Positions 1 to 58,700 of a stretch of 64,000 nucleotides of DNA are shown here, one piece after another. Source of the stretch: Isoperla grammatica (taxonomy: Eukaryota; Arthropoda; Insecta; Plecoptera; Perlodidae); assembly GCA_945910005.1 (NCBI GenBank), contig OX246744.1:44884965-44948964 (forward strand), read 5' to 3'. Position 1 is the stretch's first letter; every line of letters starts with the position of its first letter. The notes under the pieces are model-generated. The model was not told the origin of the DNA, ran no database searches, and saw only the letters and a list, made by a program, of their open reading frames with translations. The translations under genes were made by a program, and so were the position numbers.

Positions 1-2557
1 TTCCCAAACAATGTTTTATGTTGATTTTATTCTAAATCTTTTTAAAAATTACTTAATTTATTTACTTATTTGTTAAATGATCATTTTATTATTTTCCATT
101 ACAAAGCTTTGTTATTTGTTTATTTATTTTATTGTTTAAATAAATAAATAGGTAGGTAATTTATTTTCACTCCTTGCTGTAGAGGTGATACCTAGCAACA
201 AGTATTAAAAAGTAAAAAAATACCAGCAGCAAATTTTACTTTAAAATTACTTAATATTATATTTATTGAGTTGGTTTGAATAGGCAATTGTTTTTCAAGC
301 ACCTGATACCTATTAGTGAGGGGACACACTTTTGCAATAGAATTTTTAAAATTTCTTCAAATATTGCCAATAATTTTCATCTTGTAGCTGCATATTGTCT
401 AAAATTATTTCAAATTGATATTGTTTCAGGTGTGGAGAGGAACTTAACCCCACGACTGGCGCTTACTGTACCACCACCACCACCACCACCACCACCACCA
501 CCACCATGGACCAGGACCAGTAGCACACAGCATCCATGATCGGGGCCAAACAAACAGAGCTAGAGGTGCAACAGCAGCAGCTTCATCTCATTGTCAATCG
601 ATTTACGTGGGTGTGATTTAATTCGTGGCAATATAACAGCAAACGTTGGGTGAAAAGTGCTTGAGTGTTTTGTATAATATTCTTGTCTATCTTTTGTAGA
701 TGACTTGAATCACACAGGTACAGTTAAAATTGTTCCTCGTAAAGTGTTATTGTTGGGGTATTGTTAGGATGGAGGAAGTACTAGTGTTCAATAATCAATA
801 TAATGCATTTTATATCCAAAATAAGTAAATCTAAATGTTAATATAATTAATTCACACTAGCTGAAGCTGAATAGCTGAAGGTAGACTATCGGTTGGTACA
901 TTTTCTGTTCTTTTAAAACATAGGCCTACTCTACAACAAGGTCAGACGACTCAATACTTTTACTCGCCTAAATAAGAAAATCAAACCTACCCTGGATCTA
1001 TTCAACTCAGAACCGAACTCTAATGGGTAAGGCCTAGGATTGATTCTTATGGTAACTTTTTTTCATAAAAAAGGCCATACTTTTATTGCAAGCCCCAATT
1101 CAATACAGTTTTAATTCTTTGATGTTGCTTCCTCTTTTTGGTGGATTATTTAACTTTTTTTATAAGAAAACATACCTGGACAAGTGATACTATGGTTGCA
1201 GTGATACAGATAGGCTATGTTTTAGTAAATAACATAGTGCCACAGGTACATACCATGTTGGATGTATGTTACTGTATGTTGTGTATTGTATAGTAACTTG
1301 ATACTGTACGTAAAAATGAAAACGTGCTATAATAAATATTTCTACTACTAGATTGCTTAAATTATTATGTCTAAATATCTGTTATATTATGTTGTTGAGG
1401 ACATAGGCCCCTACTACATTTTTTCCCAACCAAGGTTAAAGAATATTTGTGGCCCTTGGAATTATTTGGAACAAAAAATGACAGCACATCATGGAGGCCT
1501 ATAGGCCTAGGTAAGTAGAAGTCTGAGCATAATGTCCTAAAATATAATAACAATAAGTTATAACGCCTAGTATTGGCCCTAACCATTATAGGGCTACATT
1601 ATTCAGGTTTATCACAACCTTTAGCTCTTGACTTTTCAACCACTAGCTAGCTGACAGATGACATTGCCTGTGTGTTGCAAGAAGCACCTAATTTAGTTAT
1701 TTTATTTAAACTTTAATTTAAATGCATTTTCTACTGAGGCTCCGATTTTAGACAGTCATATTTATTCAACAATATTATTTTTAGACAAATTCATCAATAA
1801 AAACAAAGGCTAACAGATAGCTACGGACGACCTACCCTTGTCTGTCTGCATATTATCGTACTCTAAAGGCATAGGGAACACATATTACTCTTAGTAATCT
1901 CTTAGTAATGTTTTCAGTGTCATTGTCTCTTGATATCGGTTATAGGTGTTCATAAATAATATTACAAGCTAAATCAGTCGAACACGAGCGTCAGATAAAA
2001 CGCCGCTATATTTCCCTCACGTGAAATTAACTTCTGTCAAACATCTGTCAAACACGAAACGGCAATAAAGACAACTGACCATCAACTGACGAAGAAACAC
2101 GTCAAGTATCCTAGCAACACACAGAATGTCAGTGCGAAGTAAACATTGCGAACGCCACCTATATGTGCCGTGAAGGCTGTGCGATACGCTTGGCAACATC
2201 GTACAGCCATCGCCTGCCCGTCTTCGTACATTGTTGTCTAACTTCGTGGTAGCGCGAGCTTCAGCATAGCTCGGCTGGCTCAATTTGCGTAGATGTTGCA
2301 AGCAGCATTATGTAGACATTCGGATAACTTGCTACTGTTTAAATTGTATCAAATACTGGATCTTACAAAAATTATCATAAAGAAACAAATAATTCACGGT
2401 TAATCCGATACCCTTATTATTGGGTAATATAACATAGGGAATAAATGGGAGCATATTCTAGGCCAACATTTCTATTTTACATGTTATTTTCCTATCCCGT
2501 GAAAACAAGCTTGAACCGGAAGTAGTTACTTTTTGGCGCACTTGCATTCCCTATACA
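1..2557. other. AT-rich region, no gene recognised
   Basis: No coding exon can be supported here. Open frames are short and lack recognisable motifs. A trinucleotide CCA run lies at about 470-507. TAGGCCTA motifs occur near 920 and 1502. Upstream exons of the unknown gene that ends at 7322 could lie here, but I cannot identify any. Confidence 0.5.
470..507. repeat. (CCA)n microsatellite
   Basis: About a dozen uninterrupted CCA/CAC triplets. In one frame it reads as polyproline, but the surrounding frame has no other protein-like feature, so it is treated as a simple repeat. Confidence 0.9.
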
Positions 2558-10735: not shown

Positions 10736-10737
10736 TA

Positions 10738-10755
10738 TGGTCCTCGCGGAGCCGA
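10738..10755 (+). other. Putative primer-binding site
   Basis: TGGTCCTCGCGGAGCC starts two bases after the 5' LTR. A TGG at this spacing is expected for complementarity to the CCA end of a primer tRNA. I did not determine which tRNA it would match. Confidence 0.7.
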
Positions 10756-16149: not shown

Positions 16150-16235
16150 TCGTTCGTTTCGGTGTGTTGTTAGATTTAGTTTTGTAGTTCTTAGGTTGTT
16201 ATTTCTCATTGTCTTATCTAAAATTGTTCTATTTT

Positions 16236-16247
16236 AGGTGGGCGGTA
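16236..16247 (+). other. Putative polypurine tract
   Basis: AGGTGGGCGGTA lies directly before the 3' LTR, where plus-strand synthesis should prime. It is purine-rich but not pure. Confidence 0.5.
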
Positions 16248-19315: not shown

Positions 19316-20090
19316 CGATCAGTAAGAACGAATCTACGAATTAAAATAATATATAGGGCCTATCAAGGATCCGGCTCGGCTTAATAACAGTTTTAATAAT
19401 ATTAATTAGGGCTAGGATGTTCAGGACCTTTCAAAGTGAGAAAAAGGCAGGCAAATAGTACCTTTAAAACAGCAAAAAAGGACCTAAAAAGGACCTATTG
19501 AATTTAATCGAATTCTATCGGTTTCATTACTTTCAGTATTGTTTTATTAAATTAATTCAGTTACACCAATATATTTTCGTGGAGAGGGGGGGCTGCAGAC
19601 ATCGGCTGGCTCATCTCATCTCTGACTCACCGTTACAGTATTCGACAACAGACAAATCATTGCGTATATGCTTGGCCCGATGATGTGGCAAGCTCGACAC
19701 TGCACTCGCACGTTTGGCATCCGTTTTAGCAAATTATATCAAAATAGGAAAATAGTCCCTTAAAAATGTCCCAAAAGGACCTTTTCTTATGAAATGATGT
19801 AAATAGGCATTTTAAGGCAAAATAAAATGCATATTTCTGGCATCCCTAACACTTGAAACACACTTTAAACTATTTTCCAGGCAAATATTTACCAATAGAA
19901 AAAAAGGAGATGTCCTGAACATCCTAGCCCTAATAATAATAATAAAATTTGGATTAGATCCCTAATCGTAGTTTTTTAAAGGCTCTTCAAACGTTTCTTT
20001 AGTTTTAAAATCGTTTCAGAGACCCGTCGGTAAGAACGAATCTACAAATGACAATAATATATACCAAGGATCCCGATCGGCAAAGAAAGC
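19316..20090. repeat. Direct repeats of about 65 bp flanking a TIR element
   Basis: GTAAGAACGAATCTAC followed by AATAATATAT and CAAGGATCC occurs at 19321-19382 and again at 20030-20090. The left copy carries an extra GGGCCTA after its TA (TATAGGGCCTATCAAGG versus TATACCAAGG). Confidence 0.75.
19406..19932. mobile_element. Non-autonomous DNA transposon with 22-bp perfect TIRs
   Basis: TTAGGGCTAGGATGTTCAGG at the left and CCTGAACATCCTAGCCCTAA at the right are exact inverted complements. The interior is AT-rich with repeated AAAAGGACCT motifs and has no transposase frame. Flanks are ATT/AAT-rich, so the target duplication is unclear. Confidence 0.88.
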
Positions 20091-20330: not shown

Positions 20331-21040
20331 AATGTAGCAACTTATTGGTGAAGATTGTTATCCGCGGTTGAAAATAGTGCTGGATATTATTGAGAAACAT
20401 CTTGTTTTGTTTGTTTGTTTTTTGTTGTTGTGTTTTTATTTTGTTGTGTTGTTTTGTTTTGTTTTGTGTTTGATTGTTTTTCATTGTCTTGTTTTGTTTG
20501 TGTTGGTTGTGTGTTTTGTTGTTTGTAGGCCTAAGTCTAAAACGTGTCCTGATTCAAATGGCGCCTTGCCTTCTAATATGAACTGATGGGATTCATAATC
20601 TGCCTACAATTTTTAAAAGCCGTATTTAATTAAAGAATGTTTCCTAATTTGCCATTATCGACGTAGGAAGAACGACGCTGCTTCAACGTAAGGTTGCCTG
20701 ACATTGCCACTTGAGCGCTCCATTCGTTTTCACTCAGTGGCCAAACACGGTGTTACCATTGAGTTTGTTCCTAACTAAGAAACTCAATGGTGTTACCGCT
20801 GAGCCCCCTACTACCGGTGCACGCGCACCGAACGAATACAGAGTTGTAATATTTACAAGAATGTGAATAGAAAAAAAAGAGTGCTCGAGTATAGACCCCA
20901 CATTCCTGGGCAGCTTCCTGTTTACTATAAAACTACACACGATGCGTAGATGCACAACGAGATGGCTGGAATTACATTGAAACGATGAACCAAACACTGA
21001 CAGCATCGGGTCCGTAAGTCCCCTGGCCCTGAGGTAGTCG
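20331..21040. other. Low-complexity T/G-rich stretch and anonymous sequence
   Basis: A TTTTGT/TTGTTT-rich run spans about 20400-20525. The remainder to 21040 shows nothing that I recognise. Confidence 0.5.
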
Positions 21041-29022: not shown

Positions 29023-29361
29023 TGATGCAATAATGTCTAAACTGCAGGTTGTTACATGTTTGTTTTTACTTTTAATTTGGGACGAGCGCATTGCACACAA
29101 CCGGAACCCTCATACGACATAATAGGCCTATAGATTAGGTGTAACAGTCTGTAAAGTGTTCCACTATGGGCCATTCTGTATAAAATCTAGATGTAGGTAT
29201 TCAAAGTTCACCAATTGCATAAAAACTCTGTAACATATAATCATGGACTTACAACTATCTGTACCTATATGCAACATGGTTCGAATACGCGTCTGCGATT
29301 CTCACTTCCGGTTTTGTGTATTGTCGGGCAATTAAGCCCCTATCGCTAAGCAATTACACAT

Positions 29362-30119: not shown

Positions 30120-30727
30120 TATAGTCGTCGTACAACATCTTCGGTAATGCTTCCGTCACGGTGGGTGAGCGGCAGCCAACCAGCGGCCGTGGCTAATTCA
30201 AATACCTGCTCGGGTTGGCCGAGACCGTAAACACGTCATTGATTGATGACAAAAGCATTACCGAAGTTATTTAAGACAAGTTTATAGTAGTCGGTACAGC
30301 AACTACGATAATGCTTTCGTCATCAATCAATGACGTGTTTACGGTCTCGGCCAACCCGAGCAGGTATTTAGTAATAATAATTTTTCGTAGGACTCACCAG
30401 CTTTACCTGATCTGCCCCTCTTCAGGTGACTAACTGGGTTATTAGGGTGTTTGGATAGTTGGGAAGGAATGTCCGAGGGCTGTTAGTATGACTCAATCCC
30501 AGCATTCGCCTTTACGACTGAGGAAAACCTCGGAAAAAACCTTTGCAGTCAGGACTGCCGGTGGCCGGAATCGAACCGGCGACCTCCCGAATGAGAGTCT
30601 CGCGTCCTACCGCCGAGCCACCTCTATCGGTAAAGGCAGGTATTTGAATTAGCCACGGCCGCTGGTTGGCTGCCGCTCACCCACCCGTGACGGAAGCATC
30701 ACCGAAGTTGTTGTACGACGACTGTAG
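30120..30727. mobile_element. Large foldback element interrupted by a SINE
   Basis: The left arm (GTCGTCGTACAACATCTTCG ... GACCGTAAACACGTCATTG) is matched in inverted order by 30310-30369 plus 30636-30727. A SINE occupies 30370-30635 within the right arm. The two arm pieces rejoin exactly across the SINE target duplication. Confidence 0.88.
30370..30635 (-). mobile_element. tRNA-derived SINE (family A), full length, with 10-bp TSD
   Basis: Minus orientation: the A and B box head is near 30560-30630, and the tail is AT-rich at 30370-30385. GCAGGTATTT flanks it on both sides (30360-30369 and 30636-30645), clear evidence of target-primed retroposition. Confidence 0.95.
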
Positions 30728-33006: not shown

Positions 33007-33011
33007 TAGGC

Positions 33012-33165
33012 CTATACTTGACGTGTCGTGCGAACTGCGAATGTGCCAGCACAGCTCGGAATGTCACGCGGTGTAGAAACTGCGATGAGCCTATATATTT
33101 GACGTGTCGGGCGAACTGCGAATGTGCCAGCACAGCTCGGAATGTCACGCGGTGTAGAAACTGCT
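33012..33165. repeat. 81-bp tandem duplication
   Basis: GACGTGTCG followed by GCGAACTGCGAATGTGCC recurs at 33020 and 33101. The two copies differ at a few positions. Confidence 0.88.
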
Positions 33166-33907: not shown

Positions 33908-34181
33908 AATAATAATAATTTTTGTAGGAATACCCGTTCTAGGGTGCACACCAGCTTTACCAGATGTGTCCCTCTTCAGGTGACTCACTAGGTTATTAGG
34001 GTGTTTGGATAGTTGGGAAGGATTGTCCGAGGGCTGTTAGTAGGACTCAATCCCAGCATTCGCCTTTACGACTGAGGAAAACCTCGGAAAAAACCTTCAG
34101 TCTGGACTGCCGGTGGCCGGAATCGAACCGGCGACCTCCCGAATTAGTCTCGCGTCTTACCGCTGAGCCACCTCTATCGGT
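33908..34181 (-). mobile_element. tRNA-derived SINE (family A), full length, with 11-bp TSD
   Basis: The minus-oriented copy has an intact head, body and AAT-rich tail. ATTCATAAAAT before it and ATTCATGAAAT after it are an 11-bp target duplicate with one mismatch. Confidence 0.94.
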
Positions 34182-35306: not shown

Positions 35307-36055
35307 CGGTATATGTATACGTAAACGGTGACTTTAGAGCCGTCATAGCAACGAAGCATAAAATATAATAAATACAAACTTATTTATTTTATTTATTTAC
35401 ACATTCAGAGACTAAATTTCTACAGAATCGAAATGTTTCCACACATGCAATAGCTACCCAGTCGATTAATTAGTTAAAAATACAGGTTACATTTGTTGAA
35501 AAAGAATTGTCTTGTCAGTCAGTAGTGGAGATTGTCTTCTTGTTGTAACAAAAAACAATGATAGGCCTACTGTTTATTAATAAGTCCTAGTTTTTAAGCT
35601 TTTCCAAATCCATTATCTATCTATTACTACTTTCAGTTTCAATTTCCGTCCATCATAGACAAATAAGTTAATAACTACAATGTAAAAGCCCCTTATAGCG
35701 AGCTTAGGCTCTTTGGGGGCAAGTCTCCATGCTGTAACATGTATTTGTTAAAATGTCAATAAAAAAATCTTTGTTCATTCATTGATTGTGATTGAAAGTG
35801 GCGGGAATTCAATCGTCTCAATTAGCTTCGTAACTACACAGTGCACGTGCACGAACCAATGGAAGCAACTTTACAAAATTAAATTCAAATGAAATAAGTA
35901 GGCTATGGCAAATCGATTTCAGCACTGTGGCAATTTGCCAAGTTTCTTTTTTCCACGTGATGATTTGTGATTTACCGGCTAGAACCACCGACAAGGAAAT
36001 CAACGGCGAGACTAATATTAATTAGCCTAAAGTAATGGGATAGTTGATACGAATC
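35307..36055. other. No gene; short family B-related stretch
   Basis: GAGCCGTCATAGCAACGAAG at 35337 matches GAGCCGTCCTAGCAACGAAG at 41940, just upstream of a family B copy. The rest is AT-rich and anonymous. Confidence 0.45.
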
Positions 36056-36190: not shown

Positions 36191-36839
36191 CAGCTGTTGT
36201 GAAACGTTTGCATTTTTGACATGTGTCATAACGAGAATTGTTTGACTTGCACTTTGTATTACTAATAAATTGATAATCTATTTAGGCTTAACTTCTAATT
36301 CAATGACCTAACGTAGGCTAATCGAAATCTTTCGTAATCGAAAACACCGCGAAATTGCGCCACGCACAATAACAATTAGTATTATCTACGTCTATGACCC
36401 AATACAGTAATGTTTATGGCACTTACCAAACATTCGGCATTCCACAACAATAATCCAATGAGTGAGTGTTGAATCGAGCAAACTTTGACGTGTATATCTT
36501 GTAAACTAAAACACACTCACAAACACAGCACAACACTTTACACTTTGCAAACTCGTCACTGAATCCGAACAGCTGTTAAATAGTACAAATTAAAATCTAT
36601 CACTAAAGTCAATTGGTTCTGATCTTGTTTTGTTTGATCACGTGTTAGGCCTAGGCCTACTCACTCACACAATGACATAAGCGTACATTCTATGCACTGT
36701 ACGAATAGTCGGTACACTGGCGGTTCTTCATCTAACCGTGATCTATCTGAAGGTCGACTGCGCTTTGTTATGTTGTGTTCTATTATTTCTGAAACTGACG
36801 TAACACATGTTCGGTTACTATGACAACGGAAGACAACGC
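36191..36839. other. AT-rich region, no gene recognised
   Basis: Contains overlapping TAGGCCTA motifs (36646-36659). Nothing else could be supported. Confidence 0.4.
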
Positions 36840-42222: not shown

Positions 42223-43810
42223 TAACCAACTATATTATCCCCATTGTACTGTACTTTACCTTGCCAACAACTCTCAAACAACTCTATTCTTTCTCTCTTA
42301 TATGTCTTCATTTTATTCTACATTTTGTTATTTCAATTACTATTTTATTCAGACTATGGACTCTTTCACATAGCATTTGAGGACACAGTATATTGTATTC
42401 GATATATGTCGTCAAAACACGGTATCTTGTTTTTAAAAATTATTTGTACAAAGGTATTCGAGACTCCTTGTGTCAGTTTACATACTAGAACATGCTGGTT
42501 GAAGGGCGATTGTATAATTCTATAATTTCCATCCGAATCGAACCCACGTCCCTTTACTTTCTACAACTGGGACCTGCGCCCAAAACTTCAGTCAATCGTT
42601 TTCGTACAAAGCTACAGATCCTTTGTCCATGATTCACGGTTGAAGTTGTACTGTAATGAATGGCGTACATACATGCACAAGGAGATATAATTATCAAGAT
42701 TATTTGTTACATGGTCCATTGTTGAGTTGGCGATACCATTTTGTCCACACCGTCAAGCTTCACGGCAACTCGTAACAACTACTACTACGAAAAAGTTTCT
42801 TTCTTTCTTTCTTTGTTTCTTGTGTAGGCGGTATATATTAATAAAGAAATTCCAAAAGGCAAAACGCATAACTGTGAAAATGCATAGCCTACCTATAGAA
42901 ACAACTTTTTATTTTTTGCACTGCATCGTTTTAAAACGCGCGCGCTCAAGCTTGACGGCAAGAGTTGAACACTGCTCATAGGTAGCAGCACTCGACGACA
43001 ATGTAGTTTGTAGCTTGTAAGGCTGCTCCTAACGGTTAATGATGAGTTTAGGGGTCATTTAAACAAGTTTTGAACAAAAAAAACTGAACACAAACTAAAA
43101 TATATTTAAGTTCACGTTTAATACAACTTTATTAATGTGATAAATCCGTCAATTATGCGATTTTATCGTGGAAATATTTACACGACTTATAGAGTGTTTG
43201 TACCGGCCTTTGGTTGGTTGTCATAACAACAACATGGCCAAGCGTTCCAAACACAAGAAGGAAGGAACGTTCCAACAAATATTCGAATAACGTGAAACAA
43301 AAGCATGTGAGAACACTTTGCAAGCTATGAAAGATTGAAGAAGGTTGACAAAATGAGCTCCATGAGGTAATTCTAATATAATTATGCTATAAGTTTAGTG
43401 ACTACCAGCGAGCAGTGCTTACGCTAACGACATAACCCTACATTCTTCCTAAATTAATTTTGTTAGCATCTCAGATTTTGTTATTTGTGGTAATATAATA
43501 GGCCTACAGTTTTACGAGTATGCTACGTCAAACGTTAATTAAACAGCTAATTTAAAGTAAGCCTACGGTATATTCCGTGGCATAAAAACATTCTGGGTCC
43601 GAATAACCGATTTATTTAAAATACGATGTTTTCATAATGTAGGGTCCCTAGGCCTATTCTACAATTCACTCTAGACAAGTAAATTTACGTATTTTAGTTT
43701 AATTACTTTTTTCCATAGCTTTAGAATGTTGTCAATCATTACATGTATTTTTAAGTATAGTTATATGTATCGTATCATACCGTATGTATTTTGTTATACT
43801 TTTTAAATGT
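42223..43810. other. AT-rich region, no gene recognised
   Basis: Contains a (TTTC)n run near 42797 and TAGGCCTA motifs at 43499 and 43649. No exons could be supported. Confidence 0.4.
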
Positions 43811-44410
43811 ATTTTTCGCTCCTGAGGTTATCCTGAGGACTACCCTTACGGGATGAGAGGTACTCCTCAGGTATACCTTTCTCATATACTTATAACATGG
43901 GAGTGAGACGCTAAGAGCAGATCACAGGATGTATAACCCAGGGTCCTCCCCAGGACTGCCCACAAAGGTAATAGTTCCCGACAGGCAGGTGACAGGTACA
44001 CTGTGGGTAGTAGTGAGGAAGACCAAGGGTAATCCTGAGGAGTACCCAGGGCAATGCTGAGGAAGACTGTGGGTAGTAGTGAGGAAGACCAAGGGTAATC
44101 CTGAGGAGAACCCAGGGCAATCCTGAGGAAGACTCAGGGTAATCCTGAGGAAGATTCAGGGCAATGCTGAGGAAGACCCAAGGATGTTTAGTTCACCCCT
44201 CAGCCCCCCACTTCGTGGGTGAGGGTGTGGGAGGGGGGTGAACTAAACATCCCAGGGTCTTCCTCAGTTTTACCCTTGGGTGCAAAACAATGGATAGGCC
44301 TATGCCGTAAATAAAATAAAATGCTTATTTTGAGCTTAAAAGTGAATTTAATTATAATAGACAAATACATACAACAACATACATACAACAATATAACATC
44401 AATATAGCTC

Positions 44411-44922
44411 ACGTGTCCCGGTTTTTTACATTTATAGCACACTATTCCAGCTGCACTGAATGCCAACGACTTTTCACTCTCAGAGTTTTCACACGGCTTC
44501 TTCTGAAATCAGTCGTGATGTTAAGTTTGTTACGTTGCGATCCGGAACTGGTGTCGACTCCCATGCTGTTCGGTATGATTTGGGCAAAGTACTCAAGATT
44601 TTTGACATGAGCATCTCGTCATCTATGGTTTGATTCAATGCTCTTAGTCTATATGCCAGGTTTTCTAATTTGCTTATATGTAGAGAAATATCACTGCCCT
44701 TCTCAAAACTGAAGTTAAAGAACTCTTGTAACAAAGCACACTTTTGTTGCTCGTTATCCTTTTGATAGATGTCACACAGCTTACTGTAGGCCTACATCTC
44801 AGCCGATGTTCCACAGTTCATGATGTGCATCATGACCTTCCTATCGATAGACATTATTACCTTCTGTGCCTTTGCATCTTTCTTCTTCCATAATTGCTTT
44901 TCTTCTTCTCTAGTACAGTGTT
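44411..44922 (-). pseudogene. Copia-type gag fragment, copy 1
   Basis: On the minus strand the reading goes through KKDAKAQKVIMSIDRKVMMH, KLCDIYQKDNEQQKCALLQE, ISKLENLAYRLRALNQTIDD and LPKSYRTAWES. This is the order of the gag region of Ty1/copia elements (UBN2 type). It continues, after a frame change, to a zinc-knuckle start CYKCKKPGH. The knuckle stops before its last cysteine. A stop codon sits where six bases TAGGCC interrupt the expected reading. No protease, integrase or reverse transcriptase follows. It is a relic, probably captured in a larger TIR element. Confidence 0.85.
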
Positions 44923-45052
44923 GCAGATTGTGTTCACCATTTTATTAGGTCTAGACCTACCTTGACTTTTTGACACAACACTGTTTTAATGTGTTTTTTT
45001 TTACTTCACTTTTTTATACCACAGAATATCCTGCGCCCATAACCTGTTCAGG

Positions 45053-45201
45053 GCCTTGATTCTCTATGGTCAACGATAAGGTGATCACCGGTTTCGGTCG
45101 TTATGAGAAGGCTGTGACCCAATCACAGCCATGTATCCGCCTTCCATAACGACAGAAACCGGTGATAAATTTACTGCAGATTTAGAGAATCGAGCTCCAG
45201 G
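45053..45201. mobile_element. Palindromic MITE (family D), copy 2, with empty site in block 2
   Basis: GATCACCGGTTTCGGTCGTTAT and its inverted match ATAACGACAGAAACCGGTGAT lie inside GATTCTCT ... AGAGAATCGA ends. The corresponding position in the duplicate block (46493) reads straight through CCTGTTCAGG to ATAATTTTTAG. CAGG flanks the insertion on both sides as the probable target duplicate. Confidence 0.9.
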
Positions 45202-45240
45202 ATAATTTTTAGTGTAGTTATTACTTCCCTACAAACATTT

Positions 45241-46495
45241 TTCGATCCTGAGGTTATCCTGAGGACTACCTTTACGGGATGACAGGTACTCCTCAGGAGT
45301 ACCTTTCTCATATACTTATAACATGGGCCCGAGTGAGACGCTAAGAGCAGATCACAGGATGTATAACCCAGGGTGCTCCCCAGGACTGCCCACAAAGGTA
45401 ATAGTTCCCGACAGGCAGGTGACAGGTACACTGTGGGTAGTAGTGAGGAAGACCAAGGGTAATCCTGAGGAGGACCCAGGGCAATGCTGAGGAAGACTGT
45501 GGGTAGTAGTGAGGAAGACCAAGGGTAATCCTGAGGAGGACCCAGGGCAATCCTGAGGAAGACTCAGGGTAATCCTGAGGAAGATTCAGGGCAATGCTGA
45601 GGAAGACCCTGGGATGTTTAGTTCACCCCTCAGCCCCCCACTTCGTGGGTGAGAGTGTGGGAGGGGGGAGGGGGGTGAACTAAACATCCCAAGGTCTTCC
45701 TCAGTTTTACCCTTGGGTGCAAAACAATGGATATGCCGTAAATAAAATAAAATGCTTATTTTGAGCTTAAAAGTGAATTTAATTATAATAGACAAATACA
45801 TAGGCCTACAACAACATACATACATACAACAATATAACATCAATATAGCTCACGTGTCCTGGTTTTTTTCATTTATAGCACACTATTCCAGCTGCACTGA
45901 ATGCCAACGACTTTTCACTCTCAGAGTTTTCACACATGGCTTCTTCTGAAATCAGTCGTGATGTTAAGTTTGTTACGTTGCGATCCGGAACTGGTGTCGA
46001 CTCCCATGCTGTTCGGTATGATTTGGGCAAAGTAGCCTACTCAAGATTTTTGACATGAGCGTCTCGTCATCTATGGTTTGATTCAATGCTCTTAGTCTAT
46101 ATGCCAGGTTTTCTAATTTGCTTATATGTAGAGAAATATCACTGCCCTTCTCAAAACTGAAGTTAAAGAACTCTTGTATCAATAAAGCACACTTTTGTTG
46201 CTCGTTATCCTTTTGATGGATGCCACACAGCTTACTGTAGGCCTACATCTCAGCCGATGTTCGACAGATGATGGGCATCATGACCTTCCTATCGATAGAC
46301 GTTATTATTACCTTCTGTGCCTTTGCATCTTTCTTCTTCCATAATTGCTTTTCTTCTTCTCTAGTACAGTCTTGCAGCTTGTGTTCACCATTTTATTAGG
46401 TCTACCTTAACTTTTTGACACAACACTGTTTTAATGTTTTTTTTTACTTCACTTTTTTATACCACAGAATATCCTGGGCCCATAACCTGTTCAGG
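45241..46495. repeat. Segmental tandem duplication, block 2
   Basis: Second copy of block 1 with the same internal order. It lacks the family D MITE and has private insertions of GGCCTA (45803, 46513) and GCCTA (46031). Confidence 0.93.
45852..46365 (-). pseudogene. Copia-type gag fragment, copy 2
   Basis: Same reading as copy 1 (KLENLAYRLRALNQTIDDET and KKDAKAQK visible on the minus strand) with additional disruptions. A GCCTA insertion near 46031 breaks the frame between the ILS and the LCPNH-like continuation, and the knuckle region has lost a cysteine codon. The shared TAGGCC interruption shows that this one predates the duplication. Confidence 0.85.
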
Positions 46496-47200
46496 ATAAT
46501 TTTTAGTGTAGTTAGGCCTATTACTTATTAATAAAGGTAGAATCAACTTCTAAAAGACCTAGTTTATTATTACAAACATGGAAAGATTACAAGAACACAA
46601 CAACCACATTTTTGTCCTAGACAACAATTAAACTTTCTGGAAGACAACAGTGCTAACACACAGACAACTTAAAATAATCTATATTTCATAAAACACGTTG
46701 TTGTTGTTGTTGTTACTATTTATTCTATTTTTATGATTATTATTATTTCTTAACAAGGCCTACCGTGAATAATAATGAATAATCACAACTTACCAGTGAA
46801 ATTGTCGGTTCAAATCACCTTTTTCGAATCACACTCACAAAAAAGTAAAGAAAAACTCACAAAACACGTCGTGTAGGTGGTTTGCTTTGACTAGAAAATC
46901 GTAGCGTTGCCATGTGCACAAGGTCACGTGGGCTCCGGCTAGGGCGGTAAAAGATTGATGACGACACAGAGCTCAAATGAGCTACTTTATCTTAAAAATT
47001 ATACCTATTCGACAATGATAGCTGGTAAAACTACAATAACACAGCAAATTTAATTTTTTTTTCAAACACTGGTTATTTTCTTACAGCAATTTCAAATGAT
47101 AAGCGAACACATGAAATAAAGATCTGAATAAATTACTACAGTCGCCTCCCTATTTGAAAGCAAGCAGGGAAGTTCTGCCTGTAGTCTACCTGAAAGGCAG
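46496..47200. other. AT-rich region, no gene recognised
   Basis: Contains (TTG)n near 46699 and AT-rich sequence. BBS1 exon 1 could lie here or further upstream, but I could not identify it. Confidence 0.4.
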
Positions 47201-47655: not shown

Positions 47656-47660
47656 TAAAT

Positions 47661-48355
47661 ACTCGTAATCCTTGCTAGGAGCTTGAACCCTCAGAGGTGG
47701 CTGGACGCTTACACCGAGCCCCACGCCTCCCTCTACACGTTCAGTCACTGCATGGCCATGGCTGACCTGAACGCTGACGGGGACTACAAGCTAAATAATA
47801 CTCGTAATCCTTGCTAGGAGCTTGAACCCTCAGAGGTGGCTGGACGCTTACACCGAGCCCCACGCCTCCCTCTACACGTTCAGTCATTGCATGGCCATGG
47901 CTGACCTGAACGCTGACGGGGACTACAAGCTAAATAATACTCGTAATCCTTGCTAGGAGCTTGAACCCTCAGAGGTGGCTGGACGCTTACACCGAGCCCC
48001 ACGCCTCCCTCTACACGTTCAGTCACTGCATGGCCATGGCTGACCTGAACGCTGACGGGGACTACAAGCTAAATAATACTCGTAATCCTTGCTAGGAGCT
48101 TGAACCCTCAGAGGTGGCTGGACGCTTACACCGAGCCCCACGCCTCCCTCTACACGTTCAGTCATTGCATGGCCATGGCTGACCTGAACGCTGACGGGGA
48201 CTACAAGCTAAATAATACTCGTAATCCTTGCTAGGAGCTTGAACCCTCAGAGGTGGCTGGACGCTTACACCGAGCCCCACGCCTCCCTCTACACGTTCAG
48301 TCACTGCATGGCCATGGCTGACCTGAACGCTGACGGGGACTACAAGCTACTTGTC
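47661..48355 (+). repeat. BBS1: 139-bp tandem array over the 3' splice site and 5' half of BBS1 exon 2, five units
   Basis: Unit starts at 47661, 47800, 47939, 48078 and 48217 are exactly 139 bp apart. Each has intronic sequence, CCCTCAG|AGGTGG, and 31-32 codons of BBS1. Units 1-4 then break from AAGCTA into AATAATACTCG intron sequence, with an in-frame TAG; only the fifth continues into the complete exon. A C/T difference at the CAGTCAC/TTGCATGG site alternates C, T, C, T, C, implying that a two-unit block was itself duplicated. Confidence 0.97.
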
Positions 48356-48394
48356 GCTGATCTGGGGACCGGAGCAACCAACATGAAACTGAAG
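48251..48394 (+). CDS. BBS1: BBS1 exon 2 (WLDAY...MKLK)
   Basis: Forty-eight codons between a CCCTCAG acceptor and a GTATTT donor, phase 0 at both ends. It encodes RWLDAYTEP, FSHCMAMADLNADGDYKLLV and DLGTGATNMKLK, which align with the N terminus of vertebrate BBS1 (WLDAHYDP...[22 protein letters not shown]). BBS1 is a core BBSome subunit, and this region begins its beta-propeller. The BBSome moves membrane proteins into and out of cilia and binds ARL6/BBS3 through this subunit. The exon lies at the end of a five-unit tandem array of its own 5' half, and four complete decoy acceptors lie upstream. Which base starts the exon (48251 or a neighbour) depends on exon 1, which was not found. Confidence 0.93.
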
Positions 48395-49077
48395 GTATTT
48401 GGGATGTGGATGGTTAAACGTTTAGTGGTGGCTTCTAGAGGTTATTTAAAATGCATTACATTCATTATATTTTAAACATTCTAAGTACCCTATCATACTT
48501 GTAGATTTAGGTACTACTCTAAGCAAAAACAGATGTAATGAGATAATCGTTTAGAGATAAATTAAAACAAATTAACTAATGTCAATAATTAAAAATATGC
48601 TAAAGGGTCTCTTCTTCTTCTTTTCTTATACCCACAAATCACAATTGACATCTCATGTCATCATGCATTTTCTGGTCAGCCAGTAGAGATAGGACTCCTG
48701 TTCACTCCGATCCATGCCACCCGGCATTTTCCCCCTTTCATTCTTTAAATCCTATAGGGTGAACTAGGTATTTTTTAAGCCATCTGTTGCTTAGGCCTAC
48801 TTTAAAATATTTTGAATAGAATAGAATATCTTAATTGACTTTGATACAGTAGTAAATGGACGGTACATGCATAACTCTTTTTAGGGAAAAAGTGAATAAA
48901 TAATAGTAATAATAATTAACGATATTTAAAATGGTGTAGGCCTATGTATAATATAATAAAACAATGTTTTTCTTACTCAAGCTCAATTTAAAAAGATATG
49001 TCAAGTGGCGTGGTGGCAAGTGCCTCTTTTGCCGGCACCATGATTTCTCCAGTAATACGCGTTGTTTGTTGCCACAG
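48395..49077 (+). other. BBS1: BBS1 intron 2
   Basis: GTATTT...CCACAG. AT-rich, with a TTCTTC run near 48610 and TAGGCCTA motifs at 48792 and near 48936. No repeat of defined family was seen. Confidence 0.85.
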
Positions 49078-49177
49078 GTGTACAAAGGCACATCGCTGAT
49101 GACGGAGAACACCCTGATAGACATTCCTACCGGAGTCGTAAGCTTCTACATGGATACAAACGAGCCTCGCATTCCCG
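49078..49177 (+). CDS. BBS1: BBS1 exon 3 (VYKGTSLMTE...RIP)
   Basis: One hundred bases starting in phase 0 after TTGCCACAG and ending in phase 1 before GTCAGT. It encodes VYKGTSLMTENTLIDIPTGV and SFYMDTNEPRIP, matching the LKGPLVMTE...FLMEQHEPRTP segment of vertebrate BBS1. This is propeller strand sequence. The frame closes correctly with exon 2 (phase 0) and exon 4 (G|CT gives Ala). It is the one recognised BBS1 exon here without a local duplication. Confidence 0.93.
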
Positions 49178-49745
49178 GTCAGTGTACATCAGTGTTGAGA
49201 TGTTGACGTTGTTGTCATAAGGGATCTATAATTACCACATTGTATCCCACTGCAAAACATATTTAAATATTCGTTGTAGATCATGGCAAATGATATCTAC
49301 TTAAAACACATAGCCCTAAAGGAACCATTTTGCGACAATGGAATGGCAAAAAGTATTAAAATATTGTGATTTTGTCTGTAATCTGTAAAAAATTGCTTCA
49401 TGTTTGTAAAAATTGATAATGCAGTACATACTTAAAGTCTTTTCGGTTATAACAATAATAATAATCTTAAACTCAGTTCCAACTGTGTCTGGTTGACTGG
49501 TGGTTTTCCACCTAGGGCATAAAGGTTGTAGACACTTAGTTTTTTTTTTTTTTGGTAGCAATTATCGAGACTTTTTAACAACTTTTTGTACGGTTGTGGG
49601 AAGATAAGAAGAGGTGGAAAAATATGGTTGTGAAACCCAAGCTGACCCTGCCAGAAGCAGGAAACGGCGATGGATAATGATGATGATGATCGATACTTTT
49701 TATTTTATTATTGTGCACCCCTGAATACGAGTCATGTTGTCGCAG
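49178..49745 (+). other. BBS1: BBS1 intron 3
   Basis: GTCAGT...GTCGCAG, phase 1. AT-rich, with a T run at 49540-49554 and a GATGATGAT run just before the acceptor. Confidence 0.85.
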
Positions 49746-50035
49746 CTATCGCTGTGGCGTCGGGCTCCAACGTGTTTGTCTACAAGAACATGCGGCCGTA
49801 CTTCAAGTTCTCTCTCCCGTCCACCGAGGTGAATCAGCTAGAACGAGAGCTCTGGACCAACGTCAGCAACCGCTCGATGGAGGTGGAGGTCTTGCACGAG
49901 ATGCTCGAGAGCGTTCGAGACGAGATCGGCTTCTCAGCGCTGACGGCTCGGTCGCAGAGGTTCCTCGTCATTACCGACCGGGCCGGACAGAAGGAGTTCG
50001 TTGACAAGTATCGCGACGTGGAGATCAAGAAACAG
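49746..50035 (+). CDS. BBS1: BBS1 exon 4 (IAVASGSNVFVYKN...IKKQ)
   Basis: A 290-base exon, phase 1 in and phase 0 out (CAG|GTGAG). It encodes IAVASGSNVFVYKNMRPYFK, FSLPSTEVNQLERELW, LHEMLESVRDE and RSQRFLVI...EIKKQ. The match to vertebrate BBS1 (YVYKNLRPYFKFSLP, LKEMLESIRE, LRFLQLE...SIKRQ) is strong and colinear. GC-rich coding composition stands out from the AT-rich introns. The last part of the exon and its donor are duplicated directly downstream (50041-50135). Use of the second donor would read through VSQR and a stop, so only the first donor preserves the protein. Confidence 0.95.
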
Positions 50036-50140
50036 GTGAGTCAGCGCTGACAGATTCCTGGTCATTACCGACCGGGCCGGACAGAAAGAGTTCGTTGACA
50101 AGTATCGCGACGTGGAGATCAAGAAACAGGTGAGTCACAG
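49942..50140 (+). repeat. BBS1: 94-bp partial duplication of the 3' end and donor of BBS1 exon 4
   Basis: CATTACCGACCGGGCCGGAC occurs at 49969 and 50063. The second copy runs from CAGCGCTGACA, lacks about 14 internal bases, and ends in the same CAGGTGAGTCA donor (50129|50130). Few substitutions separate the copies. Confidence 0.96.
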
Positions 50141-50757
50141 CGTGATACTACAATAAAACTGCACAAAACTAACTACCTAGAAAACTTTTTTAAAAATGTT
50201 ATGCAACCTTCAAATAGGCTCTTTGTAAAATGCATAGCCCATAGCCCACACAAATGGATAATTGTTTACTGTAGGCCTACACATTAATAGACCACTAAAA
50301 TAGACTAGATGCAATCTGGTGGCAAGCAGATAAAATTCTGTGAGCAGATTACTCATTGTTGATTTGTTGAAACCGTCAATGGTGCAGATAAGGGGGTAGC
50401 TTAGCAGCGCTGTCTATTGTTAGTTTGAGTCAACTATAGACGAGACCAGATGTAGACTACTGCGTGTCACCCGTTATGCCCTTCGTTACCGTTCGTTATG
50501 TGAGTGTTTTTTGGAAGCGACTGTACGGCCTGAAAGCATTCAGCTGTACGGGAAACTGGGAGGCTTATGCGTGCAGAATCCACATCACTCAAATGGAGAG
50601 TATTGTTCCCCCCCTACCCCCCCCCCCCCCCTCAAATATACTGGTGATACCTCATGGGCGAAAAGAGGAAAGAATGAAGATTTGTTTGAAACCAACGTGA
50701 AACGTTTTGTCCGCAGGCGATCATTGTTTGAAACCAACGTGAATTGTTTGTCCGCAG
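50036..50757 (+). other. BBS1: BBS1 intron 4
   Basis: GTGAGT...TCCGCAG, phase 0. It contains the duplicated exon 4 end, a TAGGCCTA near 50273, a C-rich run (50609-50632) and, at its 3' end, two copies of the acceptor region. Confidence 0.85.
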
Positions 50758-51871: not shown

Positions 51872-52283
51872 TATTCAATAGGCCTACATATTTTGTTTGT
51901 TACTTTTTGTTTACTGGTATTCATGACTCATCTATTGTTCCATTTTGTATAGTTATATATTGTATTGTTCTCCTTTTGATTGATTTATTTATATGTAATA
52001 GTAAATAAATCACAAAAAGGGAGGGGAAAGTATGTGGTTGTAATTTGTTCAAGTATTGTATTGACTACTCGATAATTAATGTTGGAAACGGCCCAACGGG
52101 GTCAAGATATATATATATATGTATATTGTCACAAAATTTTTAAAATATTCCTTCATGTTTGTAAATTAATTATTGTTTTTCAGTCACCTCTTCGATTATC
52201 GATAATTTTTATTTTATCGTTGGGCATCCCTACTAGGATATAAATACAAATTTATTTAGTACTAACAGCAAGATGTACGCATG

Positions 52284-52647
52284 AATCTGAATCGGCCTTG
52301 TTGATTCTGGCATTTGTCCGCAGGTGTTCGCACTGTCCAATCACTGATTCACGTATTTCATATTTGAAAATAGCTATTGATCTTTGGTTGGTTATCGCTC
52401 ACTCGTGGATCGTGTTCGTAGCCTACAGAGTAGGCTCAGTCGCTTTAAATTAAAGTCCTCCACTGAAAATCAGTTATGTGACTGAATGGGTAGACTAAAT
52501 ACAAAATGTATTTATTTGTTTATTTTTTTTATTTACATATTTATTTATTTATTTATGTATTTATTTGTTTATTTTTTTTATTTACATATTTATTTATTTA
52601 TTTATGTATTTATTTATTTATTCATTTATTTTATTTATTTATTGCAG
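52284..52647 (+). mobile_element. Family B repeat whose tail forms the exon 6 acceptor tract
   Basis: GAATCGGCCTTGTTGATTCT, a core with GTCGCTTTAAATTAAAGTCC, and CACTGAAAATCAGT are all present. A (TTTA)n-rich tail follows from about 52502 to 52640, ending in TTATTGCAG|GTGTCT. The tail is internally duplicated (TTTGTTTATTTTTTTTATTT occurs twice, 57 bp apart). Confidence 0.82.
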
Positions 52648-52759
52648 GTGTCTATGGGGGACGGTAGAGAGGCCATGGTGCCGGTCCACATGACAGCTAG
52701 TGGACTCTACGACGTGTATCGTGTAGAGACGGATCAATCAACGTGTGTATTTATTGCAG
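52648..52759 (+). CDS. BBS1: BBS1 exon 6, first (outermost) copy
   Basis: After ATTGCAG the frame (phase 0, continuing from exon 5) reads VSMGDGREAMVPVHMTASGL then YDVYRVETD. VPVHMTASGLYDVYRV corresponds to VPVFLEVSGQFDVEFRL of vertebrate BBS1, directly after the FTIL segment as expected. This first copy differs from the others at its start (ATGGGGGAC instead of ATCTATGAG). Reading on, it passes into the next unit and meets TGA after GVYL, so this copy alone cannot complete the protein. The true 3' part of the exon must lie after the array, outside the window. Confidence 0.85.
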
Positions 52760-55700
52760 GTGTCTATCTATGAGGGTAGAGGGGCCGTGGTGCCGGTCCA
52801 CATGACAGCTAGTGGACTCTACGACGTGTATCGTGTAGAGACGGATCAATCAACGTGTGTATTTATTGCAGGTGTCTATCTATGAGGGTAGAGAGGCCGT
52901 GGTGCCGGTCCACATGACAGCTAGTGGACTCTACGACGTGTATCGTGTAGAGACGGATCAATCAACGTGTGTATTTATTGCAGGTGTCTATCTATGAGGG
53001 TAGAGGGGCTGGGGTGCCGGTCCACATGACAGCTAGTGGACTCTACGACGTGTATCGTGTAGAGACGGATCAATCAACGTGTGTATTTATTGCAGGTGTC
53101 TATCTATGAGGGTAGAGAGGCCATGGTGCCGGTCCACATGACAGCTAGTGGACTCTACGACGTGTATCGTGTAGAGACGGATCAATCAACGTGTGTATTT
53201 ATTGCAGGTGTCTATCTATGAGGGTAGAGGGGCCGTGGTGCCGGTCCACATGACAGCTAGTGGACTCTACGACGTGTATCGTGTAGAGACGGATCAATCA
53301 ACGTGTGTATTTATTGCAGGTGTCTATCTATGAGGGTAGAGGGGCCATGGTGCCGGTCCACATGACAGCTAGTGGACTCTACGACGTGTATCGTGTAGAG
53401 ACGGATCAATCAACGTGTGTATTTATTGCAGGTGTCTATCTATGAGGGTAGAGGGGCCGTGGTGCCGGTCCACATGACAGCTAGTGGACTCTACGACGTG
53501 TATCGTGTAGAGACGGATCAATCAACGTGTGTATTTATTGCAGGTGTCTATCTATGAGGGTAGAGGGGCCGTGGTGCCGGTCCACATGACAGCTAGTGGA
53601 CTCTACGACGTGTATCGTGTAGAGACGGATCAATCAACGTGTGTATTTATTGCAGGTGTCTATCTATGAGGGTAGAGGGGCTGGGGTGCCGGTCCACATG
53701 ACAGCTAGTGGACTCTACGACGTGTATCGTGTAGAGACGGATCAATCAACGTGTGTATTTATTGCAGGTGTCTATCTATGAGGGTAGAGGGGCCGTGGTG
53801 CCGGTCCACATGACAGCTAGTGGACTCTACGACGTGTATCGTGTAGAGACGGATCAATCAACGTGTGTATTTATTGCAGGTGTCTATCTATGAGGGTAGA
53901 GGGGCCGTGGTGCCGGTCCACATGACAGCTAGTGGACTCTACGACGTGTATCGTGTAGAGACGGATCAATCAACGTGTGTATTTATTGCAGGTGTCTATC
54001 TATGAGGGTAGAGGGGCCGTGGTGCCGGTCCACATGACAGCTAGTGGACTCTACGACGTGTATCGTGTAGAGACGGATCAATCAACGTGTGTATTTATTG
54101 CAGGTGTCTATCTATGAGGGTAGAGGGGCCGTGGTGCCGGTCCACATGACAGCTAGTGGACTCTACGACGTGTATCGTGTAGAGACGGATCAATCAACGT
54201 GTGTATTTATTGCAGGTGTCTATCTATGAGGGTAGAGGGGCTGTGGTGCCGGTCCACATGACAGCTAGTGGACTCTACGACGTGTATCGTGTAGAGACGG
54301 ATCAATCAACGTGTGTATTTATTGCAGGTGTCTATCTATGAGGGTAGAGGGGCTGTGGTGCCGGTCCACATGACAGCTAGTGGACTCTACGACGTGTATC
54401 GTGTAGAGACGGATCAATCAACGTGTGTATTTATTGCAGGTGTCTATCTATGAGGGTAGAGGGGCCGTGGTGCCGGTCCACATGACAGCTAGTGGACTCT
54501 ACGACGTGTATCGTGTAGAGACGGATCAATCAACGTGTGTATTTATTGCAGGTGTCTATCTATGAGGGTAGAGGGGCCGTGGTGCCGGTCCACATGACAG
54601 CTAGTGGACTCTACGACGTGTATCGTGTAGAGACGGATCAATCAACGTGTGTATTTATTGCAGGTGTCTATCTATGAGGGTAGAGGGGCCGTGGTGCCGG
54701 TCCACATGACAGCTAGTGGACTCTACGACGTGTATCGTGTAGAGACGGATCAATCAACGTGTGTATTTATTGCAGGTGTCTATCTATGAGGGTAGAGGGG
54801 CCGTGGTGCCGGTCCACATGACAGCTAGTGGACTCTACCACGTGTATCGTGTAGAGACGGATCAATCAACGTGTGTATTTATTGCAGGTGTCTATCTATG
54901 AGGGTAGAGGGGCCGTGGTGCCGGTCCACATGACAGCTAGTGGACTCTACGACGTGTATCGTGTAGAGACGGATCAATCAACGTGTGTATTTATTGCAGG
55001 TGTCTATCTATGAGGGTAGAGGGGCCGTGGTGCCGGTCCACATGACAGCTAGTGGACTCTACGACGTGTATCGTGTAGAGACGGATCAATCAACGTGTGT
55101 ATTTATTGCAGGTGTCTATCTATGAGGGTAGAGGGGCCGTGGTGCCGGTCCACATGACAGCTAGTGGACTCTACGACGTGTATCGTGTAGAGACGGATCA
55201 ATCAACGTGTGTATTTATTGCAGGTGTCTATCTATGAGGGTAGAGGGGCCGTGGTGCCGGTCCACATGACAGCTAGTGGACTCTACGACGTGTATCGTGT
55301 AGAGACGGATCAATCAACGTGTGTATTTATTGCAGGTGTCTATCTATGATGGTAAAGGGGCTGTGGTGCCGGTCCACATGACAGCTAGTGGACTCTACGA
55401 CGTGTATCGTGTAGAGACGGATCAATCAACGTGTGTATTTATTGCAGGTGTCTATCTATGAGGGTAGAGGGGCTGTGGTGCCGGTCCACATGACAGCTAG
55501 TGGACTCTACGACGTGTATCGTGTAGAGACGGATCAATCAACGTGTGTATTTATTGCAGGTGTCTATCTATGAGGGTAGAGGGGCCGTGGTGCCGGTCCA
55601 CATGACAGCTAGTGGACTCTACGACGTGTATCGTGTAGAGACGGATCAATCAACGTGTGTATTTATTGCAGGTGTCTATCTATGAGGGTAGAGGGGCCGT

Positions 55701-58700
55701 GGTACCGGTCCACATGACAGCTAGTGGACTCTACGACGTGTATCGTGTAGAGACGGATCAATCAACGTGTGTATTTATTGCAGGTGTCTATCTATGAGGG
55801 TAGAGGGGCCGTGGTGCCGGTCCACATGACAGCTAGTGGACTCTACGACGTGTATCGTGTAGAGACGGATCAATCAACGTGTGTATTTATTGCAGGTGTC
55901 TATCTATGAGGGTAGAGGGGCCGTGGTACCGGTCCACATGACAGCTAGTGGACTCTACGACGTGTATCGTGTAGAGACGGATCAATCAACGTGTGTATTT
56001 ATTGCAGGTGTCTATCTATGAGGGTAGAGGGGCCGTGGTGCCGGTCCACATGACAGCTAGTGGACTCTACGACGTGTATCGTGTAGAGACGGATCAATCA
56101 ACGTGTGTATTTATTGCAGGTGTCTATCTATGAGGGTAGAGGGGCCGTGGTGCCGGTCCACATGACAGCTAGTGGACTCTACGACGTGTATCGTGTAGAG
56201 ACGGATCAATCAACGTGTGTATGTATTGCAGGTGTCTATCTATGAGGGTAGAGGGGCCGTGGTGCCGGTCCACATGACAGCTAGTGGACTCTACGACGTG
56301 TATCGTGTAGAGACGGATCAATCAACGTGTGTATTTATTGCAGGTGTCTATCTATGAGGGTAGAGGGGCCGTGGTGCCGGTCCACATGACAGCTAGTGGA
56401 CTCTACGACGTGTATCGTGTAGAGACGGATCAATCAACGTGTGTATTTATTGCAGGTGTCTATCTATGAGGGTAGAGGGGCCGTGGTGCCGGTCCACATG
56501 ACAGCTAGTGGACTCTACGACGTGTATCGTGTAGAGACGGATCAATCAACGTGTGTATTTATTGCAGGTGTCTATCTATGAGGGTAGAGGGGCTGTGGTG
56601 CCGGTCCACATGACAGCTAGTGGACTCTACGACGTGTATCGTGTAGAGACGGATCAATCAACGTGTGTATTTATTGCAGGTGTCTATCTATGAGGGTAGA
56701 GGGGCCGTGGTGCCGGTCCACATGACAGCTAGTGGACTCTACGACGTGTATCGTGTAGAGACGGATCAATCAACGTGTGTATTTATTGCAGGTGTCTATC
56801 TATGAGGGTAGAGGGGCTGTGGTGCCGGTCCACATGACAGCTAGTGGACTCTACGACGTGTATCGTGTAGAGACGGATCAATCAACGTGTGTATTTATTG
56901 CAGGTGTCTATCTATGAGGGTAGAGGGGCCGTGGTGCCGGTCCACATGACAGCTAGTGGACTCTACGACGTGTATCGTGTAGAGACGGATCAATCAACGT
57001 GTGTATTTATTGCAGGTGTCTATCTATGAGGGTAGAGGGGCTGTGGTGCCGGTCCACATGACAGCTAGTGGACTCTACGACGTGTATCGTGTAGAGACGG
57101 ATCAATCAACGTGTGTATTTATTGCAGGTGTCTATCTATGAGGGTAGAGGGGCCGTGGTACCGGTCCACATGACAGCTAGTGGACTCTACGACGTGTATC
57201 GTGTAGAGACGGATCAATCAACGTGTGTATTTATTGCAGGTGTCTATCTATGAGGGTAGAGGGGCTGTGGTGCCGGTCCACATGACAGCTAGTGGACTCT
57301 ACGACGTGTATCGTGTAGAGACGGATCAATCAACGTGTGTATTTATTGCAGGTGTCTATCTATGAGGGTAGAGGGGCCGTGGTGCCGGTCCACATGACAG
57401 CTAGTGGACTCTACGACGTGTATCGTGTAGAGACGGATCAATCAACGTGTGTATTTATTGCAGGTGTCTATCTATGAGGGTAGAGGGGCCGTGGTGCCGG
57501 TCCACATGACAGCTAGTGGACTCTACGACGTGTATCGTGTAGAGACGGATCAATCAACGTGTGTATTTATTGCAGGTGTCTATCTATGAGGGTAGAGGGG
57601 CCGTGGTGCCGGTCCACATGACAGCTAGTGGACTCTACGACGTGTATCGTGTAGAGACGGATCAATCAACGTGTGTATTTATTGCAGGTGTCTATCTATG
57701 AGGGTAGAGAGGCCGTGGTGCCGGTCCACATGACAGCTAGTGGACTCTACGACGTGTATCGTGTAGAGACGGATCAATCAACGTGTGTATTTATTGCAGG
57801 TGTCTATCTATGAGGGTAGAGGGGCCGTGGTGCCGGTCCACATGACAGCTAGTGGACTCTACGACGTGTATCGTGTAGAGACGGATCAATCAACGTGTGT
57901 ATTTATTGCAGGTGTCTATCTATGAGGGTAGAGGGGCCGTGGTGCCGGTCCACATGACAGCTAGTGGACTCTACGACGTGTATCGTGTAGAGACGGATCA
58001 ATCAACGTGTGTATTTATTGCAGGTGTCTATCTATGAGGGTAGAGGGGCCGTGGTGCCGGTCCACATGACAGCTAGTGGACTCTACGACGTGTATCGTGT
58101 AGAGACGGATCAATCAACGTGTGTATTTATTGCAGGTGTCTATCTATGAGGGTAGAGGGGCCGTGGTGTCGGTCCACATGACAGCTAGTGGACTCTACGA
58201 CGTGTATCGTGTAGAGACGGATCAATCAACGTGTGTATTTATTGCAGGTGTCTATCTATGAGGGTAGAGGGGCCGTGGTGCCGGTCCACATGACAGCTAG
58301 TGGACTCTACGACGTGTATCGTGTAGAGACGGATCAATCAACGTGTGTATTTATTGCAGGTGTCTATCTATGAGGGTAGAGGGGCCGTGGTGCCGGTCCA
58401 CATGACAGCTAGTGGACTCTACGACGTGTATCGTGTAGAGACGGATCAATCAACGTGTGTATTTATTGCAGGTGTCTATCTATGAGGGTAGAGGGGCCGT
58501 GGTGTCGGTCCACATGACAGCTAGTGGACTCTACGACGTGTATCGTGTAGAGACGGATCAATCAACGTGTGTATTTATTGCAGGTGTCTATCTATGAGGG
58601 TAGAGGGGCCGTGGTGCCGGTCCACATGACAGCTAGTGGACTCTACGACGTGTATCGTGTAGAGACGGATCAATCAACGTGTGTATTTATTGCAGGTGTC

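Follow-up and report, generated by a model that had tools for sequence, protein, structure and literature searches.

The window, i.e. the whole stretch of 64,000 nucleotides of Isoperla grammatica DNA analysed here, holds a BBS1-like gene, a BEL/Pao element, tandem arrays, SINE copies and a tandemly duplicated block that carries the short insertions described below (Table 1). The BBS1-like gene (47658-50047; PF14779, E=3e-30 on 49646-50047) contains a 139-bp unit repeated five times at 47658-48349. The BEL/Pao element (10234-16747) has a 1,757-aa open frame, and its two long terminal repeats are 99.6% identical; its polyprotein shares 63-64% identity with its two closest relatives and up to 49% with insect relatives (Zophobas, Diaphorina, Cacopsylla). 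Tandem arrays occupy 2553-7197 (164-bp unit, 28 copies), 24995-26744 (63-bp unit, 28 copies) and 52636-64000, where about 101 copies of a 112-bp unit run off the window; this last unit opens with TTATTGCAG, which is splice-acceptor-like, and resembles part of an exon. The two blocks share 94.1% identity in an alignment of 1,276 columns, with gaps included in the count, and belong to a dispersed repeat with at least 104 matches in the genome, many of them partial. The gag remnant in block 1 was recognized by Pfam PF14223 (E=6e-18 on 44489-44788, - strand).

Table 1 Coordinates of the duplicated blocks, word sites and related repeats. Positions refer to the window unless a stretch number (L) is given; filled and empty counts refer to copies of the block repeat
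Feature	Position	Strand	Remarks
Block 1 of tandem duplicate	43811..45052	.	holds copia-type gag remnant on - strand
Block 2 of tandem duplicate	45237..46495	.	likeness runs on to ~46530, beyond the element interrupting block 1
TAGGCCTA, private 6-bp insertion, block 1	44295..44302	.	TAGGCC 1 filled/18 empty
TAGGCCTA, private 6-bp insertion, block 2	45801..45808	.	TAGGCC 1 filled/19 empty, string-scored (misplaced by aligner)
TAGCCTA, private 5-bp insertion, block 2	46033..46039	.	TAGCC 1 filled/20 empty
TAGGCCTA, private 6-bp insertion, block 2	46513..46520	.	TAGGCC 1 filled/12 empty, 8 not covering
TAGACCTA, 6 bp ancestral in repeat, lost in block 2	44952..44959	.	6 bp in 16/17 covering copies
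TAGGCCTA, older family-wide site, block 1	44787..44794	.	filled 19/19 covering copies, L162 empty
TAGGCCTA, same older site in block 2	46238..46245	.	filled 19/19 covering copies, L162 empty
TAGGCCTA	921..928	.	word match
TAGGCCTA	1502..1509	.	word match
TAGGCCTA	20526..20533	.	word match
TAGGCCTA	29123..29130	.	word match
TAGGCCTA at repeat edge	33007..33014	.	partner copy altered there
TAGGCCTA	35562..35569	.	word match
TAGGCCTAGGCCTA, two units in tandem	36646..36659	.	word match
TAGGCCTA	43499..43506	.	word match
TAGGCCTA	43649..43656	.	word match
TAGGCCTA	48792..48799	.	word match
TAGGCCTA	48937..48944	.	word match
TAGGCCTA	50272..50279	.	word match
TAGGCCTA	51879..51886	.	word match
TAGGCCTA with empty partner	L130:4292		neighbouring mismatches
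TAGGCCTA with empty partner	L136:7233
TAGGCCTA with empty partner	L138:6876		against other arm of same inverted repeat
SINE copies	8038-8304, 18367-18635, 33913-34181; also L169-L228
TA-flanked inverted-repeat element, CC...GG ends	30203..30366	.	24/24 terminal bases match between arms
Probable hAT-type element, TAGGGCTAGGATGTTCAGGAC ends	19406-19932		TIR TAGGGCTAGGATG; candidate 8-bp duplication ATATTAAT/ATAATAAT, 7/8

The palindrome TAGGCCTA occurs 19 times in the window against 0.67 expected, a number reached in 0 of 100 shuffles, and it ranks first in count among the 256 palindromic 8-mers. The earlier note had called for such a comparison across the genome. In 874,298,753 bases (603 contigs) the word is found 245,368 times and its reverse, which has an identical letter content, 3,576 times. 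A sample of fourteen 10-kb stretches from preset positions on six contigs (140 kb, a figure that includes neither the window nor loci selected for the word) holds 71 copies against a second-order expectation of 1.49. A larger set of 198 kb, consisting of the window minus its three large arrays, the same 14 stretches and four loci chosen for holding TAGGCCTA, gives 98 against 2.26. The enrichment is real and genome-wide, and chance fails as its general cause. Density is uneven, from 0 to 31 copies per 10 kb. Two stretches of contig C6 (L138 and L139) are dense in TAGG/CCTA words, and parts of them (L138:1-2200, L138:3940-4320 and L139:180-860) are crowded with TAGGCC, TAGCC, TAGACC and CTAG words, the pattern that repeated hits on TA would leave.

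The earlier note had read the two blocks as five filled/empty pairs, and all five are present, at most a few bases away from its coordinates. To polarize them, both blocks were aligned with 20 more stretches of the same repeat (L143-L162). Filled and empty states were scored on 21 copies, namely the two blocks and L143-L161, with those that do not cover a given site left out of its count; the diverged relative L162 was excluded from counts of private insertions. The fills at 44295, 45801, 46033 and 46513 are derived insertions private to one copy. Four of the five pairs therefore bear out the claim that each event duplicates TA and adds GGCC or GCC, being centred on TA and filled in one copy against 12 to 20 empty ones. 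The fifth pair, for which GACC had been proposed as the added sequence, reflects the loss of 6 bp from block 2, the 6 bp being present in 16 of the 17 covering copies; hence it is no evidence for a GACC-type scar, and the possibility that the motif is ancestral and removed by 6-base deletion holds for this pair alone. The older site shared by both blocks introduces a stop into the frame of the gag-like remnant.

Across the repeat, 22 insertions occur in no more than two copies, and seven of them convert TA into TA-(3 to 5 G/C-rich bases)-TA. An eighth case of the same type, at 45801, lies outside this automatic list through misplacement by the aligner and was added by string count. Among the cases outside the window are TAGCC in L158 (1 filled/20 empty), TACCGG in L149 (1/17), CTACGG in L150 (1/18) and CTAGAGG in L147 (1/16), the last two of which could also represent imperfect local duplications. 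In 200,000 trials with random insertions of matched lengths and composition, 0.8% created a new TA-[GC]3-5-TA, a test that strictly fits six of the eight cases, as GAGGC contains an A and 45801 is off the list.

Similar events are found in other repeats. Self-alignments of the 198-kb set yielded three TAGGCCTA sites outside the window with empty partners (Table 1); two further sites, in L139, sit in motif-rich sequence and are ambiguous. Among 64 SINE copies at 8.5% divergence there are 25 insertions of at least 2 bp, including one clear TAGGCC (L173) and one ambiguous case (L226). At one SINE TA, followed through 2,857 copies, 39 insertions of at least two bases were counted, of which TAGGCCTA accounts for one; this TA has the context G-TA-A, unlike the preferred R-TA-Y (see below). 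The commonest insertion of at least two bases at that TA is TA to TATA (14 of 39), followed by TGTA with eight, and TATA could belong to the same series, with zero fill, or simply stem from slippage. No event was seen in eight copies of another SINE, a biased set in which six were selected from the longest of the top-scoring matches, nor was such an insertion present in three copies of DDE_3 transposase loci. An 8-kb part of an unplaced contig (C565), tried as a possible second haplotype, gave only repeat matches outside itself among the 40 of 22,874 candidates that were scored.

The bases added between the two TAs follow a narrow spectrum. With the two dense stretches left out, GGCC is found 52 times against 1.7 expected (in a set that takes the window up to 52600 with its two smaller arrays unmasked) and GGC/GCC 39 times against 15.8, while GC, at 36 against 36, is not raised. 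Longer fills are few (GGGCC 3 against 0.8, GGGCCC 0). Other four-base fills in excess are CCGG (7 against 1.7), GCGG/CCGC (10 against 3.4) and AGCC/GGCT (11 against 4.6), and GCGC (1), CGCG (2) and GGGG (2) are not raised. The one-sided TAGGTA, counted at 115 against 84 in the set just described, was set aside for a count of 87 against 79 without the dense stretches, which is not clearly raised. Genome-wide, GGCC makes up 62.6% of 392,205 TA[GC]4TA words, the reversed class numbering 129,868; TACCGGTA occurs 27,620 times and its reversed word 10,452 times. A peak at 2+2 bases, followed by 2+1 and with no 1+1 excess, points to a fixed remainder of two bases per side. The earlier expectation that variants one base shorter, typical of transposon scars, would accompany the main form is borne out by the GGC/GCC excess. 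The private insertions and those in other repeats show a TA site with TA on both sides afterwards, and the spectrum shows a short symmetric remainder with one-base losses, both as expected of a Tc1/mariner-type footprint.

Isolated TAGGCCTA sites (49 runs) favour R-TA-Y. The base before TA is G in 0.40, A in 0.31, C in 0.19 and T in 0.10 of these runs, compared with G 0.20, A 0.31, C 0.17 and T 0.31 at all TA. In the genome, 81,057 of 245,368 copies (33%) have R..Y flanks, compared to about 25% for sampled TA sites overall. One-substitution neighbours of the word are few, with 81 against 55.7 expected where the exact word has 98 against 2.3, and most TAGGCCTA sites therefore look young. If copies accumulated constantly and were never removed, the observed ratio of neighbours to exact words would be reached at about 7% divergence, by our own calculation and with a large error.

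The reading we favour, at about an even chance, is that TAGGCCTA is the excision scar of a Tc1/mariner-like element whose ends read GG...CC. Such an element (5'-GG...CC-3') would enter TA and duplicate it; a Tc1/IS630-type transposase would later excise it, with cuts at its 3' ends and 2 nt inward of its 5' ends. Fill-in and joining of the 3' overhangs, which read GG on both strands, would then give TA-GGCC-TA. Loss of one base would result in TA-GCC-TA or TA-GGC-TA, and a CC-ended family could in the same way produce TACCGGTA. For ISY100 transposase, cuts are reported to lie exactly at the 3' ends (24/24) and, on the 5' side, mostly two bases within the element (13/16) (PMC2170065). In favour of the scar reading, TA-flanked families with GG...CC and with CC...GG ends both exist, and the fills GGCC and CCGG are both in excess. 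The CC...GG element at 30203..30366 would leave TACCGGTA in this scheme. Against it, the private fills CGGC and GAGGC are not expected from GG ends, although they may be local duplications; events in SINE copies are few, TAGGTA is hardly raised, TAGGCC that is not followed by TA is scattered, and no scar was seen with an allele that still holds an element. That an element was once present at these sites, as well as its identity and its enzyme, we infer. From the earlier note, which first proposed the scar of a GG...CC element at TA, the TA-centred insertions, the enrichment and the shorter variants stand, whereas the GACC pair is a loss and no fitting parent was found.

Such a parent was sought as suggested in the earlier note, among Tc1/mariner/IS630 elements at TA with terminal inverted repeats starting GG. 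Frames of DDE_3 transposases (PF13358; Tc1/mariner/IS630-type) give at least 109 matches in the genome (150 of 389 candidates scored), many of them without stops, so that a transposase of this superfamily is present; long inverted repeats are seen at some of the loci L163-L168. A TA-flanked MITE of the form GGG...CCC with GGGCACTAGCAACACC ends also exists. It is homogeneous, about 300 bp long (seen at L129:27-334), and 5,598 ends with at most two mismatches, compared to 24 for the reversed word, correspond to about 2,800 elements. Its target, however, is ATAT: TA is preceded by A in 84 of 100 ends examined among the 2,514 exact ones, all 100 being on contig C1 and from a search pattern that barred C at -8. 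As A precedes TA in a fraction of only 0.31 at isolated TAGGCCTA sites, and as the scars prefer R-TA-Y, this MITE was rejected as the main source and is at most a minor one. No parent with matching ends and target was found among TA-flanked inverted repeats of the window and the 14 stretches. The most frequent recurring words of the 198-kb set that start with TAGG all belonged to TAGGCCTA itself, to local arrays, or to repeats confined to one stretch or shared by a few. Of 246 strand-wise occurrences of TAGGCC in the same set, 182 continue with TA and 64 with one of 15 other dinucleotides, a scatter which shows that no common element starts with TA-GGCC. The hunt for TA-flanked inverted repeats starting GG also returned the element at 19406-19932, which was rejected as a source; it is probably of hAT type. 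Since a parent with matching ends and target was sought and not found, membership of Tc1/mariner is not claimed. As GG-ended elements are rare relative to the scars, the parent would have to excise very often, be mostly gone, or belong to families not recognised here.

As the main rival explanation, TA could be cut with a 2-nt 5' overhang and filled in, after which a terminal-transferase-like polymerase would add GG, or less often CC or a mixture, to each 3' end before joining. This explanation is possible but we regard it as unlikely. It would account for both excess fills, as G on both 3' ends gives GG|CC and C on both gives CC|GG, for mixed G-rich fills such as GAGGC among the private insertions, and for a search that turned up no parent element. 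Free addition, however, should yield graded lengths, which is at odds with the sharp 2+2 peak, the lack of a 1+1 excess and the scarcity of 3+2, as well as with the dominance of GGCC among four-base G/C fills. We know of no enzyme of this type. Taken as a new germline mutational process, in which a staggered break at TA is filled, two Gs are added per 3' end and TA becomes TAGGCCTA with two TAs that can be hit again, it would have made about 235,000 copies within a few per cent of divergence; this, too, we hold only tentatively.

Less probable still is another kind of micro-insertion, in which a fixed template, RNA or DNA, supplies a short piece that is copied into TA breaks, or in which a TA-targeting retroelement is truncated almost completely. 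Copying would explain the fixed letters and why one word dominates, yet a copied piece need not be symmetric, and the product is palindromic around the break with short forms that lose bases of GGCC. Expansion or contraction of a TAGGCC microsatellite by replication slippage, or deletion of an old word, is very improbable. Tandem runs do occur (seven of two units and two of three), as do the dense stretches L138 and L139, and the 44952 pair reflects a 6-bp loss. Nevertheless, 89 of 98 runs in the window and L121-L142 (with four overlapping loci counted twice) are single units instead of arrays that change by whole units, and the insertions lie in flanks that lack TAGGCC, with 12 to 20 copies empty, which contradicts slippage, the alternative raised in the earlier note, as a general cause. 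An artefact of assembly or library is highly improbable, as an insertion common to all 19 covering copies and absent in a relative, beside private ones with a target preference, is an evolutionary pattern and not that of an adapter.

Among known systems, the footprints of Tc1/mariner/IS630 elements share with the insertions the TA target and its duplication, the few terminal bases left behind, one-base variants and a two-base stagger. Tc1 leaves TACATGTA and Sleeping Beauty TAC(A/T)GTA. They differ from the present case, which has GG/CC end letters, about 245,000 copies, a preference for R-TA-Y and no parent of matching ends and target among the elements found. N additions at V(D)J joints, where G...C fills arise when G is added to both 3' ends, are similar in this respect and differ from the fixed 2+2 length and TA specificity seen here. 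HIP1, the iterated palindrome GCGATCGC of cyanobacteria, is likewise a short palindrome repeated genome-wide, the difference being that TAGGCCTA arises by an insertion that duplicates TA. Elements of the PHIS superfamily, as described in PMC4482050, resemble the proposed parent in ends starting with GG or GGG: NuwaI has GGG ends and a CWG duplication, and Pangu often has AG or GG ends. Their duplications are given there as CWG, ANT, TNA, TWA or AT and never as plain TA, and the term footprint has 0 occurrences in the main text of that paper. An element of about 146 bp that interrupts the end of block 1 (45052-45197), with imperfect inverted ends and CAG on both sides, is absent from block 2 and is similar to NuwaI in its CWG duplication (PMC4482050).

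If the sites are scars, they record about 235,000 past excisions (the genome count of TAGGCCTA minus roughly 10,000 copies expected at the rate of the 198-kb set), including cut-and-paste events that resident copies hide, and the parent would be either lost or extremely prone to excision. Otherwise, they would represent a new kind of sequence-specific insertion mutation. In either case, sites of the TAGGCCTA type can shift reading frames (5 bp), add stop codons and bias word and motif statistics. Literature searches, judged by titles, met none on TAGGCCTA insertions. The word seems to be common in some fish and sea-urchin sequence. Two IMG/VR contigs, L080 (2626-3912) and L089 (4561-4793), hold 8 and 7 copies of TAGGCCTA in about 7 kb each, and these do not form a simple tandem array.
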